From contig NZ_JAUGQQ010000003.1 in the NCBI RefSeq assembly GCF_030410135.1, positions 62,001 to 126,000 of the forward strand: 64,000 nt of DNA, written 5' to 3'. This document shows, one piece after another, positions 45,307 to 54,751 of this stretch. Numbering within the stretch: the first letter of the stretch is position 1; each line of letters starts with the position of its first letter. The position numbers and the translations under genes are program-made. The DNA comes from Aequorivita aurantiaca. Lineage in GTDB: Bacteria > Bacteroidota > Bacteroidia > Flavobacteriales > Flavobacteriaceae. The notes below the pieces were generated by a model that saw only the letters and a list, made by a program, of their open reading frames with translations, was not told the DNA's origin and did no database searches.

Positions 45307-46563
45307 TCAAACAATCATCCCAGCAGCCACAGTTTCATGCGAAGCATCATCAATAAGAACAAAACTTCCCGTTACGCGGTTATCGCGATACTCATCAACC
45401 ATTAATGGTCGGGTGGTCCTGATACTGATTCGGGCGATGTCGTTCATTTTTAGTTGCTTGTCCTCTTCATTTCTTGCATAGGTGTTGATGTCAATTTTAT
45501 ATACCACTTCCTTAATCATTGCCTTCTGTTCGTTCGAAGTGTGAACAATGGTATATTTAGCCCGATCGCGGGCTGGGGAATTGTTGAACCAACACAGCAT
45601 GGCGTCAAATTCCTGCAAGGCTTTTGGTTGGTTGTTTTCCTTTACAATCATATCGCCCCGGCTGATGTCAATGTCATCTTCTAAGGTAATCGCAACAGAC
45701 ATTGGGGCAAAAACCTCTTCCATACTCCCATCCATAGTGTCAATGCTTCTAATTTTTGAAGTGAAGCCCGAGGGCAGAATAACTACTTCATCCCCCTTTC
45801 TGAAAATTCCGCTTGCAACGCGGCCGGCATAACCTCGGTAATCCCTAAACTCTTCATTTTGCGGCCGTAAAACGGTCTGCACCGGAAAACGGGCATCAAT
45901 TTTATTGATGTCGCTACTAATGTGCATGGTTTCCAAAGCGTGTAACAAGGGGGCGCCCTGGTACCAATCCATATTTGTGGAACGGTTTACCACATTGTCG
46001 CCATCAAGTGCGCTAATGGGAAGAAACTGTATATCCTTTACATATAATTTTGAAGAAAATTCCTCAAATTGATGGATTATATTTTGGTAAACTTCTTCTG
46101 AATAATCCACTAAATCCATTTTATTGATGCAGACAATTATATGCGGAATCTGTAATAGTGAAGCGATAAAGGCGTGCCGCTTGGTTTGTTCAATAACACC
46201 ATGGCGGGCATCAATCAATATAAGGGCGGCGTTCGCAGTGGAAGCCCCGGTAACCATATTGCGAGTATATTGAATATGGCCCGGGGTATCGGCGATTATG
46301 AATTTCCGCTTTGGCGTGGTGAAATATCTATATGCAACATCTATAGTAATCCCCTGCTCCCGCTCATCGCGCAAGCCGTCTGTAAACAAGGCCAAATCCA
46401 CCCCTTTGTGTCCCTTTTTTTTGCTTGTATTTTCTACAGCTTCCAGTTGATCCTCGAAAATAGCCTTGCTATCATAGAGCAATCTGCCAATAAGGGTGCT
46501 TTTCCCATCATCAACGCTGCCGGCGGTTGTGAATCTTAGTAGTTGGTTTTTGTCTATCTCCAT
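45307..46563 (-). CDS. cysN: Sulfate adenylyltransferase subunit 1 (GTPase)
   Basis: A 418-residue EF-Tu-like GTPase: G1 GSVDDGKSTLIGRLLYD, the G2/switch region REQGITIDVAYRYF, G3 DTPGHIQYTRNM and G4 CINKMDLVDYS. It couples GTP hydrolysis to APS formation by CysD. It lacks any fused APS kinase, consistent with the separate cysC gene. It is separated from cysD by the inserted GxxExxY gene, although in most genomes the two are adjacent. It is the last gene of the operon. Confidence 0.95.
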   Translation of the reverse strand: MEIDKNQLLRFTTAGSVDDGKSTLIGRLLYDSKAIFEDQLEAVENTSKKKGHKGVDLALFTDGLRDEREQGITIDVAYRYFTTPKRKFIIADTPGHIQYTRNMVTGASTANAALILIDARHGVIEQTKRHAFIASLLQIPHIIVCINKMDLVDYSEEVYQNIIHQFEEFSSKLYVKDIQFLPISALDGDNVVNRSTNMDWYQGAPLLHALETMHISSDINKIDARFPVQTVLRPQNEEFRDYRGYAGRVASGIFRKGDEVVILPSGFTSKIRSIDTMDGSMEEVFAPMSVAITLEDDIDISRGDMIVKENNQPKALQEFDAMLCWFNNSPARDRAKYTIVHTSNEQKAMIKEVVYKIDINTYARNEEDKQLKMNDIARISIRTTRPLMVDEYRDNRVTGSFVLIDDASHETVAAGMIV

Positions 46564-46566
46564 TTT

Positions 46567-47028
46567 ACACGGATTTTCGGATTAATTTATTTAAACTTCT
46601 TATTAGTATTGACAAAACGCTTCCAAGTTAAACTGGTTTGTCCAAAATTGAGCAATAAACCCACTGGAGCATTTATTGATTTTAAATAGTTTATGGTTTG
46701 GGCTTCAGCAATCTTATGAAGAAAAGACGCCGATTTGATTTCAATAACAATATTTTCATAACAAATAAAATCTGCAACAAAATACTTTTTCAAAGGTTTA
46801 CCCAGATAATAAACCATCAACTTTTTTTTAGTTTCGAAAGGTATCAATTGATTTTTAAACTCAACTTCCAAAGCTTCATGGTAAACCGATTCCAAAAATC
46901 CTGCTCCCAGTCCTGTATGTACAGCCATAGCAGCGCCAATAATCTTGAATGTTTCCTGTTCATAAACCAATTTTCCCATATTAAATCTAAGTAATCCGCG
47001 AAATCCGCGAAATTCGTTTAATCCGTGT
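46567..47028. mobile_element. Candidate micro-cassette carrying the GxxExxY gene
   Basis: The cysD-cysN junction holds a 462-bp block whose ends are exact inverted copies, ACACGGATT (46567-46575) and AATCCGTGT (47020-47028). Inside the right end the word is iterated in 9-bp steps (TCGCGGATT twice, then variants); the left end has one further CGGATT. The block starts 3 bp from the cysN start codon and ends 6 bp from the cysD stop codon, so it occupies just the junction. No transposase or target-site duplication was recognised. That it is mobile is inference. Confidence 0.5.
46587..46979 (-). CDS. GxxExxY protein inserted between cysD and cysN
   Basis: A 130-residue protein with the naming motif in GAGFLESVYHEAL (about 26-38), then FVADFICYENIVIEIKSA and LLLNFG, which resemble the PD-(D/E)xK nuclease-like fold proposed for the family (PF13366). 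Its biochemical function is not established. It lies in the operon direction, 23 bp before the cysN start and 55 bp after the cysD stop, and is not related to sulfur metabolism. The reading frame is intact. Flanking inverted 9-mers suggest it arrived as a cassette. Confidence 0.88.
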   Translation of the reverse strand: MGKLVYEQETFKIIGAAMAVHTGLGAGFLESVYHEALEVEFKNQLIPFETKKKLMVYYLGKPLKKYFVADFICYENIVIEIKSASFLHKIAEAQTINYLKSINAPVGLLLNFGQTSLTWKRFVNTNKKFK

Positions 47029-47034
47029 TATTTT

Positions 47035-47940
47035 TTAAAAATACCCCTGCCGCTTCCTATCCTCCATCGCGGTTTCGCTTCGCTTATCGTCGCTGCGGTT
47101 GCCGCGTTCGGTTTGTTTCATGGCTGCTACTTCGGCCACGATTTTCTCCAGGGTGTCGGCTTCACTTTCAATCCCTCCAGTTATCGTAATATCCCCAAGG
47201 GTTCTAAAGCGAATTTTTTTAGATTCAACCTTTTCATTGTCATCCAGTTTCAAATATTCCGAAACGGGAATCCACGAATCATTTCGCCAGACAACTTCGC
47301 GTTGATGCGCAAGGTATAGCGAAGGAATTTTTATGTCTTCGCGTTTAATATAGTTCCAAACATCCATTTCGGTCCAATTGCTAATGGGAAAGGCGCGGAA
47401 ATGCTCTCCTTCAAAATGTTTTCCATTAAGCAAGTTCCACAATTCCGGGCGTTGGTTTTTTGGGTCCCACTGCCCAAAATCGTCCCGATGTGAAAAAAAG
47501 CGTTCCTTTGCACGAGCTTTTTCCTCATCGCGCCTTCCGCCGCCAATGGCGCAGTCAATTTTGTTTTTTTCAATAGCATCCAAAAGGGTGGTTATCTGAA
47601 GGGCATTTCGGGTGGCACTTTTACCTTTTTCCTCTGCTACCCTACCAGTGTCAATAGATTCCTGTACGGAACCGACAATTAATTGTACGGCCAACTCCTT
47701 TATCATATCATCACGAAACTGTATGGTTTCGGGGAAGTTATGTCCCGTATCCACATGCAAAAGTGGGAACGGAATTTTTGAAGGAAAGAAAGCTTTTCTT
47801 GCCAAATGCGTAACAAGAATGGAATCCTTTCCGCCGGAAAAAAGTATCACCGGGTTTTGGAACTGCGCCCACACTTCGCGAAGAATATAGATGGCTTCCG
47901 ATTCCAATTCGTCTAGATAGCTTAGATAGTATTTGCTCAT
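47035..47940 (-). CDS. cysD: Sulfate adenylyltransferase subunit 2
   Basis: A 301-residue PP-loop ATP sulfurylase subunit. FSGGKDSILVTHLARKAF (about 34-51) is the pyrophosphate-binding loop, followed by LLHVDTGHNFPET and GGGRRDEEKARAKERFFS. It makes APS from ATP and sulfate together with CysN. Length equals E. coli CysD (302 aa). The C-terminus is the usual arginine-rich RKRQGYF tail. It lies in the cys operon, with a scar-like 195-bp gap upstream. Confidence 0.96.
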   Translation of the reverse strand: MSKYYLSYLDELESEAIYILREVWAQFQNPVILFSGGKDSILVTHLARKAFFPSKIPFPLLHVDTGHNFPETIQFRDDMIKELAVQLIVGSVQESIDTGRVAEEKGKSATRNALQITTLLDAIEKNKIDCAIGGGRRDEEKARAKERFFSHRDDFGQWDPKNQRPELWNLLNGKHFEGEHFRAFPISNWTEMDVWNYIKREDIKIPSLYLAHQREVVWRNDSWIPVSEYLKLDDNEKVESKKIRFRTLGDITITGGIESEADTLEKIVAEVAAMKQTERGNRSDDKRSETAMEDRKRQGYF

Positions 47941-47985
47941 TTTTCGTTTGTTAGTTTTTAAATCGGGAATTGGGATTGGGAATTT

Positions 47986-48128
47986 GGGATTTGGGAAAAT
48001 TCTTTAATAGTATTTACTTTTCGTTATTCTTATTCTGGATATAAATTTCCAACCATTTTTGTATTTTAAAACTAAAACGTTATCTCAATTTTGAAATGCT
48101 AATTTCAAATTATCGAATTTCAAATCCC
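47986..48128. repeat. Gene-less scar with inverted ends between cysC and cysD
   Basis: GGGATTTG (47986-47993) and CAAATCCC (48121-48128) are inverted. The left side is iterated as GGGAATT, GGGATT, GGGAATTT, GGGATTT, GGGAAAATT from 47965 to about 48001. The interior has only a short unassignable frame. The layout repeats that of the cassettes at 46567 and 54343, so this may be an emptied one. Confidence 0.4.
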
Positions 48129-48135
48129 ATATCAC

Positions 48136-48723
48136 TTACATTCTTTTATCAATAAATTTCATAATCAAACCAACCGCCTCCGCAACTGAAATTAACGTAG
48201 TATCAATCTCCAGATCCGGCGCCATGGGTGGCTCGTAGGGTGCGTTTACGCCTGTAAAATTCTCAATTTCCCCTGCCCTTGCCTTCGCATATAGTCCTTT
48301 TACGTCCCGACGTTCGCATTCCTCAATTGGCGTATTTACAAATATTTCTACAAAATTGGTGTAGCCCACAATCCGCTTCGCGTTTTCACGGTCCTCTCTA
48401 AATGGAGAAATGAAGGAGGCTATCACTATCAAGCCAGCATCAAGCATTAAATGGGCAACTTCGGCAATACGGCGAATGTTTTCGGCTCTGTCCTCCTCTG
48501 AAAAGGAAAGATTGTTGTTTAGACCTTTTCGAACGTTATCGCCATCCAGCAAATAAGTGTGGATTTCCCTTTGGAACAATGCGTTTTCAAGAGCGTCGGC
48601 TATTGTTGATTTTCCCGAACCGGACAGTCCCGTGAACCAAATCAATAAAGATTTGTGCTTTTTCAATTCGCTTCGTTGTTGCTGCCCAATACTGAAATTG
48701 TTGGGGATAATATTTTGTTCCAT
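48136..48723 (-). CDS. cysC: Adenylyl-sulfate kinase
   Basis: A 195-residue enzyme that phosphorylates APS to PAPS. Walker A is GLSGSGKSTIADAL (about 32-45), followed by LLDGDNVRKGLNNNLSFSEEDR and FISPFREDRENAKRIVG, the APS-binding signatures. It lies 5 bp downstream of the DUF2061 gene. PAPS could feed assimilatory reduction or sulfation of polymers; no PAPS reductase or sulfotransferase is in the window. Confidence 0.95.
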   Translation of the reverse strand: MEQNIIPNNFSIGQQQRSELKKHKSLLIWFTGLSGSGKSTIADALENALFQREIHTYLLDGDNVRKGLNNNLSFSEEDRAENIRRIAEVAHLMLDAGLIVIASFISPFREDRENAKRIVGYTNFVEIFVNTPIEECERRDVKGLYAKARAGEIENFTGVNAPYEPPMAPDLEIDTTLISVAEAVGLIMKFIDKRM

Positions 48724-54327: not shown

Positions 54328-54751
54328 TTTTTCTTGTAGTCTGTACGCAGTATGCAGTAGTCAGTTATGTGGTCTTCACTCCAAACTATTCGGGAGTGGT
54401 TCATCATATAATTTAACCAGTTGCCTACTTCAATACTTCCGTTTATTAATTTATCAAATTCTATTTTTACAATATATCTACTTTCTTTTGCAAAATCCAG
54501 CCAACTTTGTGTTTCTAAATTCTCAGAATCACTATCCTTCAGCTTACTTACAAAATGCTTTGGATATTTTCTTTTTCCCTAAGATTGTCCATTAGCCGTC
54601 GAAACCGCTATTGAGACCTTCCAATCTGAGTTGTCAGAGAATATTTCTCCTCTTTGGGAAAACTTCTTGAAATTTCAAATATCTCCATAGCTAATGAAAT
54701 TGATTTTTTAAAGCTATGAAATCCTGAAATTTCAATATTACATAATTTCAA
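54315..54751 (-). pseudogene. Broken four-helix-bundle (S23/bAvd-type) gene between nqrD and nqrE
   Basis: The minus strand from TTG 54751 reads KLCNIEISGFHSFKKSISLA, then FPKEEKYSLTTQIGRS, the usual start of PF05635 proteins (23S rRNA intervening-sequence family). A 1-base deletion after GGAAGGTCT shifts the frame; in the shifted frame it continues SIAVSTANGQS, a TAG where the family has Trp (AESWRKR), then GKRKYPKHFVSKLKDSDSEN, LETQSWLDFAKESRYIV and EVGNWLNYMMNHSR. So both halves are recognisable and the gene is dead, with at least one frameshift and one nonsense change. The shifted frame runs into the first bases of nqrE. The gene has the same direction as the nqr operon. Confidence 0.85.

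Follow-up and report, generated by a model that had tools for sequence, protein, structure and literature searches.

Insertion sequences and MITEs carry a single gene or none between inverted ends, and they are present at or absent from individual sites. In REPIN/RAYT systems, a gene lies between inverted repeats that also stand alone as hairpins (available text of PMC3116915). According to the available sections of PMC4990558 and PMC11270868, 23S rRNA IVSs consist of a small S23/23S_rRNA_IVP ORF between complementary termini and occur sporadically, in sense orientation, within a transcribed unit. Heptameric GGGAATC and GGGGA(C/T)T repeats of Xanthomonas and Nostoc were described as G-quadruplex repeats; these 7-bp intergenic repeats favor positions between aligned ORFs, two Xanthomonas genomes contain 70–75 convergent inverted pairs of them, and neither "helix bundle" nor "S23" appears in the available text of the paper (PMC4692102). 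Furthermore, 18 23S_rRNA_IVP genes were found in cas loci, one of them between the co-operonic genes cmr3 and cmr2, and were read as having a CRISPR-associated function (available text of PMC3936711).

The window analyzed here, a stretch of 64,000 nucleotides from Aequorivita aurantiaca, contains a GxxExxY gene in a cassette between cysD and cysN. The unit resembles 23S rRNA IVSs in having one small ORF between complementary termini and in its sporadic occurrence and sense orientation, and four-helix-bundle cassettes of the genus carry the IVS protein family itself (PF05635). However, the window cassette lies between protein genes, not in rRNA, its ends are iterated words, and its gene belongs to PF13366, an unrelated nuclease family; S23/23S_rRNA_IVP genes occur in the four-helix-bundle cassettes of relatives. 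REPIN/RAYT systems share the gene between inverted repeats that also occur as solo hairpins, but the cassette protein gave no Y1 (RAYT) transposase match in profile and Foldseek searches, the cassettes have iterated 7–10-bp words instead of REP palindromes, and genes and solo words do not co-occur. As in insertion sequences, the cassette has inverted terminal repeats and is present or absent at sites, whereas it has no transposase, its ends are word arrays, its sense orientation is strong, and no target duplication was recognized by eye. Unlike a homing endonuclease gene, GxxExxY is not confined to one homologous site and occupies 17 locus groups in the genus. One of the 18 23S_rRNA_IVP genes of cas loci likewise lies between co-operonic genes; the ends of these genes are not discussed in the available text of PMC3936711.

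The GxxExxY cassette of the window

The cassette (46567–47028, minus strand), delimited by its outermost inverted 9-mers, lies 6 bp from the cysD stop codon and 3 bp from the cysN start codon; spacers free of a cassette occur in other genomes of the genus. The upstream neighbor cysD (47035–47940) and the downstream neighbor cysN (45307–46563) matched TIGR02039 (417.5 bits) and TIGR02034 (553 bits), respectively. Both are on the minus strand, co-directional with the intact GxxExxY ORF (46587–46979, minus strand), which encodes a PD-(D/E)XK nuclease-like protein of 130 aa and is the sole GxxExxY match of the 3.09-Mb genome. The upstream array (46993–47028, minus strand) consists of four 9-bp units, AATCCGCGA AATCCGCGA AATTCGTTT AATCCGTGT, with gene-pointing CRCNRAK words at −48, −30, and −21 from the start codon, and a period of 9 was detected by TRF at 46993–47013. 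The downstream array (46567–46585, plus strand) has the inverse orientation and comprises a single CRCNRAK word plus a diverged unit. The three upstream words and the one downstream word all point inward; the density of the word in the window was 1.58 per kb per strand. The outermost 9-mers, ACACGGATT and AATCCGTGT, are exact inverted copies. The first-pass annotation was accurate in its coordinates, the intact gene, the operon-wise direction, the exact inverted 9-mers, and the 9-bp steps; the outermost 9-mer, which it had taken as the diagnostic unit, is replaced here by the short core word CRCNRAK in 8–10-bp steps.

As stand-alone evidence, the 9-mer pair was rejected as being at chance level: another exact 9-nt inverted pair was present within the same kilobase, and the end-match score of the window copy (local inverted alignment) was 12, compared with a median of 11 for the flanks of 394 control ORFs. 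It is the comparison with other loci, including the CRCNRAK pattern, that raises the window copy above chance. The window's own word occurs elsewhere in its genome at one other site with 1 mismatch and at three sites with 2 mismatches.

The cysC-cysD spacer (47941–48135, minus strand) contains no gene; GGGATTT-like arrays lie close to one of its ends and a short inverse match lies close to the opposite end, and the spacer is probably the remnant of a second cassette. At the corresponding place upstream of cysD, a four-helix-bundle gene was present in G002, G006, G014, G022, and G026. Elsewhere in the window (54396–54709, minus strand), a four-helix-bundle gene has decayed and is interrupted by an internal stop. 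At another locus of the same genome, L107, a partial match to the four-helix bundle is flanked on both sides by CAACCGA-like arrays in direct, not inverted, orientation.

The window protein matched TIGR04256 (131 bits; cut-off, 35) and PF13366 (120.9 bits; cut-off, 22) only, and no known transposase domain was found in it. The catalytic-type residues E30, D70, E80, and K82 (E...D...ExK pattern) were invariant in 25 diverse copies. The best Foldseek match of the AlphaFold model (pLDDT 89.7, pTM 0.83) was 4ic1, SSO0001 (E 1.3e-4, TMq 0.60), which we take to be a Cas4 nuclease, followed at weaker E values by MGME1, lambda exonuclease, RecE, and AddAB. By its modeled fold and these residues, the GxxExxY protein is predicted to be a RecB/Cas4-like PD-(D/E)XK nuclease and is thus a probable DNA-cutting enzyme. 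One relative weakly matched a phage CRISPR-associated family. In the PDB, no sequence relative was found beyond two S100 chains at E 0.5–0.7, and a role as an anti-phage defense gene was rejected, with 0 PADLOC-DB matches for three copies. GxxExxY matches were also seen within an 883-aa open frame (G053:C9, G065:C22, and G081:C1), possibly a fusion to a larger protein. The four-helix-bundle proteins matched 23S_rRNA_IVP (PF05635) and, weakly, Avd/bAvd of diversity-generating retroelements. For pairs of same-site copies with dS of 0.1–1.5 and dN below 0.35, the median dN/dS was 0.07 for GxxExxY (35 pairs) and 0.08 for the four-helix bundle (96 pairs). This low ratio shows purifying selection, and intact copies are therefore in use.

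Matching ends and family-specific words

Within the genus, GxxExxY matches were present in 26 of 28 genomes and four-helix-bundle (TIGR02436) matches in all 28; among sampled Bacteroidota genomes, the two families were found in 50 of 99 and 45 of 61, respectively. From the genus, 162 distinct copies were fetched, of which 136 were usable and 26 with short flanks or partial genes were dropped. When the upstream 150 bp were matched with the reverse complement of the downstream 150 bp, the mean score was 20.3 for the two ends of one copy, 11.1 for cross pairs, and 10.5 for shuffled sequences. Limiting the set to a single copy from each locus group (17 GxxExxY and 23 four-helix-bundle groups, 40 in all) gave 21.3, compared with 11.3 after permutation, and the largest of 5000 permutations gave 14.1. 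A score of at least 17 was reached by 75% of the cassettes and 11% of the 394 control ORF flanks. The end match was 21.5 vs 12.0 for named GxxExxY loci (71 usable among the best 80 of the matches listed, many of them from metagenome bins; nine were dropped) and 18.2 vs 10.6 for 25 usable four-helix-bundle loci across the phylum. The best 80 named loci came from Bacteroidota, Acidobacteria, Planctomycetota, Cyanobacteria, Desulfobacteraceae, Neomarinimicrobiota, Lentisphaerae, Methanosarcinales, and others. The end matching and the word arrays support the earlier description of a self-bounded cassette with iterated inverted ends.

Both neighbors were co-directional for 75 of 77 resolved four-helix-bundle copies and 32 of 42 GxxExxY copies of the genus, and for 39 of 51 resolved named GxxExxY loci. 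The four-helix-bundle copies of the window's own genome lie at atpA-atpG and in what, from reading the translations, are presumably the sdh and paa operons, and most carry their own word. In the four-helix-bundle cassettes of the genus, the matched upstream end was C-poor (7% C and 25% G, sense strand), and GxxExxY ends were balanced. Adjacent GxxExxY gene pairs, possibly tandem insertions, were observed at G412:C4:68683-69764 and G057:C1:1593381-1594196.

Over 55 of the named loci, gene-pointing CRCNRAK words within 50 bp of the gene reached 14.2 per kb upstream and 22.2 downstream, compared with 2.5 and 2.8 per kb, respectively, at 500–700 bp; reverse-oriented words were also raised within 50 bp (10.9 and 12.0 per kb). 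Among 113 word spacings of up to 20 bp, 90 were 8, 9, or 10 bp. The word was then counted in 28 Bacteroidota GxxExxY loci found by profile, independently of the word definition; 2 of 30 GxxExxY and 4 of 29 four-helix-bundle loci of the phylum were dropped. CRCNRAK was present on both sides within 120 bp in 20 of the 28 loci and absent from one or both sides in eight, and the controls showed it on both sides in 0 of 28 distal windows (580–700 bp away) and 2 of 25 four-helix-bundle loci. Within 60 bp of these 28 genes, the inward orientation was clear, with inward words at 21.4 and 27.4 per kb, compared with 7.1 and 2.4 per kb, respectively, for reverse ones. In the genus, 14 of 17 GxxExxY groups and 0 of 23 four-helix-bundle groups had the word on both sides. 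Present on both sides of most GxxExxY loci and in few or none of the controls, the word is thus specific to the gene family. Inverted iterated words also flank GxxExxY genes elsewhere, which the first-pass annotation had proposed to check, as seen in the 20 independent loci and among the named ones.

Words were shared by 48 of 56 GxxExxY pairs and 23 of 26 four-helix-bundle pairs whose proteins were at least 70% identical and which had no common neighbor. When both neighbors were common and the proteins less than 60% identical, words were shared by 0 of 4 and 0 of 36 pairs, respectively, some of which may be neighboring junctions; pairs overlap in their members. The background of unrelated pairs was 31 of 520 and 173 of 1866. 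Sharing was defined as a score of at least 17, and only copies with a self score of at least 17 were entered, with the window copy excluded. The highest score for different genes at the same site was 16, and the cut-off of 17 therefore matters for the GxxExxY pairs. The idea that the insertion site dictates the words was rejected, the comparison giving the opposite result. The comparison shows that the words are a property of the element and follow its gene.

Turnover at operon junctions and gene-less forms

cysD was found in 26 of the 28 genomes of the genus, at 27 loci, one of which ends before cysN and one of which has a partial cysD. The cysD-cysN spacer, stop codon included, was 15–20 bp in three loci and 60–76 bp in four, making seven sites empty or almost empty, and longer inserts or remnants were present in 20; the two genes had been said normally to abut, a statement that holds only in part in this genus. 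GxxExxY genes of two subtypes occupied six of the 27 loci (G000 and G011; G002, G006, G023, and G026). Four-helix-bundle (23S-IVP) genes of two types occupied 11, five with 8-bp GTGAATCT-like words and six with 7-bp GCTGTAG-like words, and at least two of these copies were broken. Three loci had remnants, namely one DUF559 ORF locus and two one-sided repeat remnants. At L085 (G015), the DUF559 ORF, with CCAACCCTAAAGGG-like inverted ends, lies inside an apparent GxxExxY remnant and reads as a nested third cassette type. In the cysD tree, the sisters G013 and G006 (97/97) carry different cassettes. Cassettes are present, absent, and exchanged at this one site; the exchange rests on a weakly forked tree, in which 13 of 23 inner forks were open and many were weak, and exchange of the whole region is also conceivable.

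In Flavobacterium, a GxxExxY cassette with nearly perfect inverted ends of about 50 bp (L245, L252, and L254) lies between two genes that, by their sequence, we take to be thiG and thiH. Among 27 thiG-thiH junctions in the family, a count that omits 5 of 32 loci with the genes in another order, 15 were shorter than 40 bp, three had a GxxExxY cassette, and nine had other spacers of 45–488 bp. The short spacers represent empty sites in other members of the family. Cassette-free spacers, which the first-pass annotation proposed to look for, exist at both junctions, and the gene is not fixed at cysD-cysN; GxxExxY genes located elsewhere carry inverted words, so that neither of the outcomes named there as refuting was seen. 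The empty sites are, however, too diverged to show an exact join at the 9-mers or a target duplication, and no duplication was recognizable by eye in six loci.

At atpA-atpG, all 27 loci (L179–L205) had an inverted-word unit of one of three kinds: eight four-helix-bundle cassettes (two broken), ten gene-less GTATTGAG hairpins, and nine gene-less GxxExxY-word hairpins, so that 19 of the 27 loci had gene-less hairpins. The hairpin may serve some function for the ATP synthase operon. GxxExxY-type words of the gene-less hairpins point outward, whereas those of cassette ends point inward, and the hairpins are therefore not simply cassettes without their gene. Exact GxxExxY-type double words were present in 20 of the 28 genomes, and the reversed control gave zero. 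G022 had 23 such words and zero GxxExxY genes, and G000, G005, G008, G012, G013, G017, G020, and G025 had genes and no exact double word. The GTATTGAG pattern was left out as a count because its reversed control was non-zero in many genomes. A long one-direction array of this 7-bp word was seen in the window's own genome (G000:C50:174292-174383).

Candidate explanations and implications

With moderate confidence, we read the block as a compact insertion element with a single gene, the nuclease product of which would act on the iterated ends of the element itself. A mobile unit is proposed because the words are element-borne, family-specific, and inward, and because cassettes turn over at fixed sites (cysD-cysN, atpA-atpG, and thiG-thiH); the matching ends, the low dN/dS, and the nuclease fold also speak for it. 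The weak ends of the window copy count against it, as do the lack of a known transposase domain and of a recognizable target duplication, the raised reverse-oriented words near the gene, the eight of 28 loci with no word on one or both sides, the words without genes and genes without words, and the weak forks of the cysD tree, and no movement event was seen in the loci compared. The element would consist of an inward array of short words (CRCNRAK core, 8–10-bp steps), a small Cas4/RecB-like nuclease gene, and an inverse array, mostly inserted co-directionally between operon genes. The nuclease would most likely recognize its own iterated ends and would cut or trim them as the unit moves into a new intercistronic site or enters it by repair, and host repair or recombination would finish the insertion. 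Antisense insertions may be selected against, or the route of insertion may be linked to a transcript; either would account for the sense orientation. Word binding, nuclease activity, and mobilization are what we infer from this pattern. The anatomy and the site turnover of the new mobile unit envisaged in the first-pass annotation were observed, and its movement is putative; the same architecture carries the unrelated four-helix-bundle/23S-IVP family with other words.

The ends might instead pair in the operon transcript and enclose the ORF in an IVS-like stem that either stabilizes the mRNA or is cut by RNase III; their complementarity would then be kept for this pairing. The anatomy matches that of 23S rRNA IVSs, with a four-helix-bundle ORF between complementary termini (available text of PMC4990558), and the strong sense orientation and intercistronic position of the cassettes would fit as well. 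However, in locus groups scoring at least 17, with the window copy left out, G-U and A-C end mismatches were equally frequent (36.5 vs 37.8 for GxxExxY and 40.6 vs 37.1 for the four-helix bundle), a comparison that sense-strand cytosine deamination could bias, and selection for RNA stems was rejected on this ground. There was no Rfam match at 46200–48200, and the word sequence is conserved across phyla, which pairing alone would not demand; we regard the RNA stem as unlikely.

Mobility of the gene-less iterated hairpins, moved in trans by a GxxExxY or four-helix-bundle protein as in REPIN/RAYT systems, with the gene captured or domesticated, would account for the atpA-atpG hairpins, whose words are of the same kinds, and for the double words in 20 genomes. 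Words and genes do not co-occur, however, as in G022 and the eight genomes listed above, and simple trans-mobilization of gene-less words was rejected on these counts; the gene-bearing cassettes themselves turn over at cysD-cysN and thiG-thiH, and this explanation is quite improbable. A very improbable one is that the arrays are slippage-prone simple repeats of operon spacers with ordinary host genes between them by chance. It would agree with the varying number of units among arrays, the direct arrays of L107, and long one-direction GTATTGAG arrays such as that on C50, but not with inverted end matching far above permutation, words tied to the gene and not to the site, and the recurrence of a single word theme with one gene family in different phyla.

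Compared with described systems, the window unit lacks the defining features of an insertion sequence (transposase), RAYT/REPIN (Y1 gene and co-occurrence), and an rRNA IVS (location and gene). Open-licence PMC searches, among the papers listed and within the text available there, found no published account joining GxxExxY or four-helix-bundle genes to iterated ends, and no described function of either family was found. We know of no kind of element in which a lone gene for a Cas4/RecB-like nuclease, or for a four-helix bundle, lies between operon genes and is flanked by iterated ends specific to the element. The recurrence of this design around GxxExxY and around an unrelated gene in many bacteria suggests a type of insertion element not described before; for the four-helix-bundle cassettes, the milder label "IVS-like" is fair. 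The heptamer repeats may be linked to such cassettes. More tentatively, GxxExxY and the 23S-IVP four-helix bundle could be two founders of a class of recombinase-free single-gene mobile elements that insert in sense between the genes of operons, and each protein would read the iterated and inverted end words of its own element. Many short 7–10-bp intergenic repeats of bacteria, including the Xanthomonas/Nostoc heptamers, would then represent ends of such elements or derivatives without a gene, and rRNA IVSs would be the special case of elements that landed in rRNA.

If this is true, the GxxExxY and four-helix-bundle families would be explained together, as genes of small insertion elements, and the 23S-IVP genes in cas operons (available text of PMC3936711) would have an alternative reading. 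The origin of many short intergenic repeats would become testable, and the rewriting of operon spacers would be shown. It also suggests that a minimal Cas4/RecB-like nuclease could serve iterated ends without a classical transposase.
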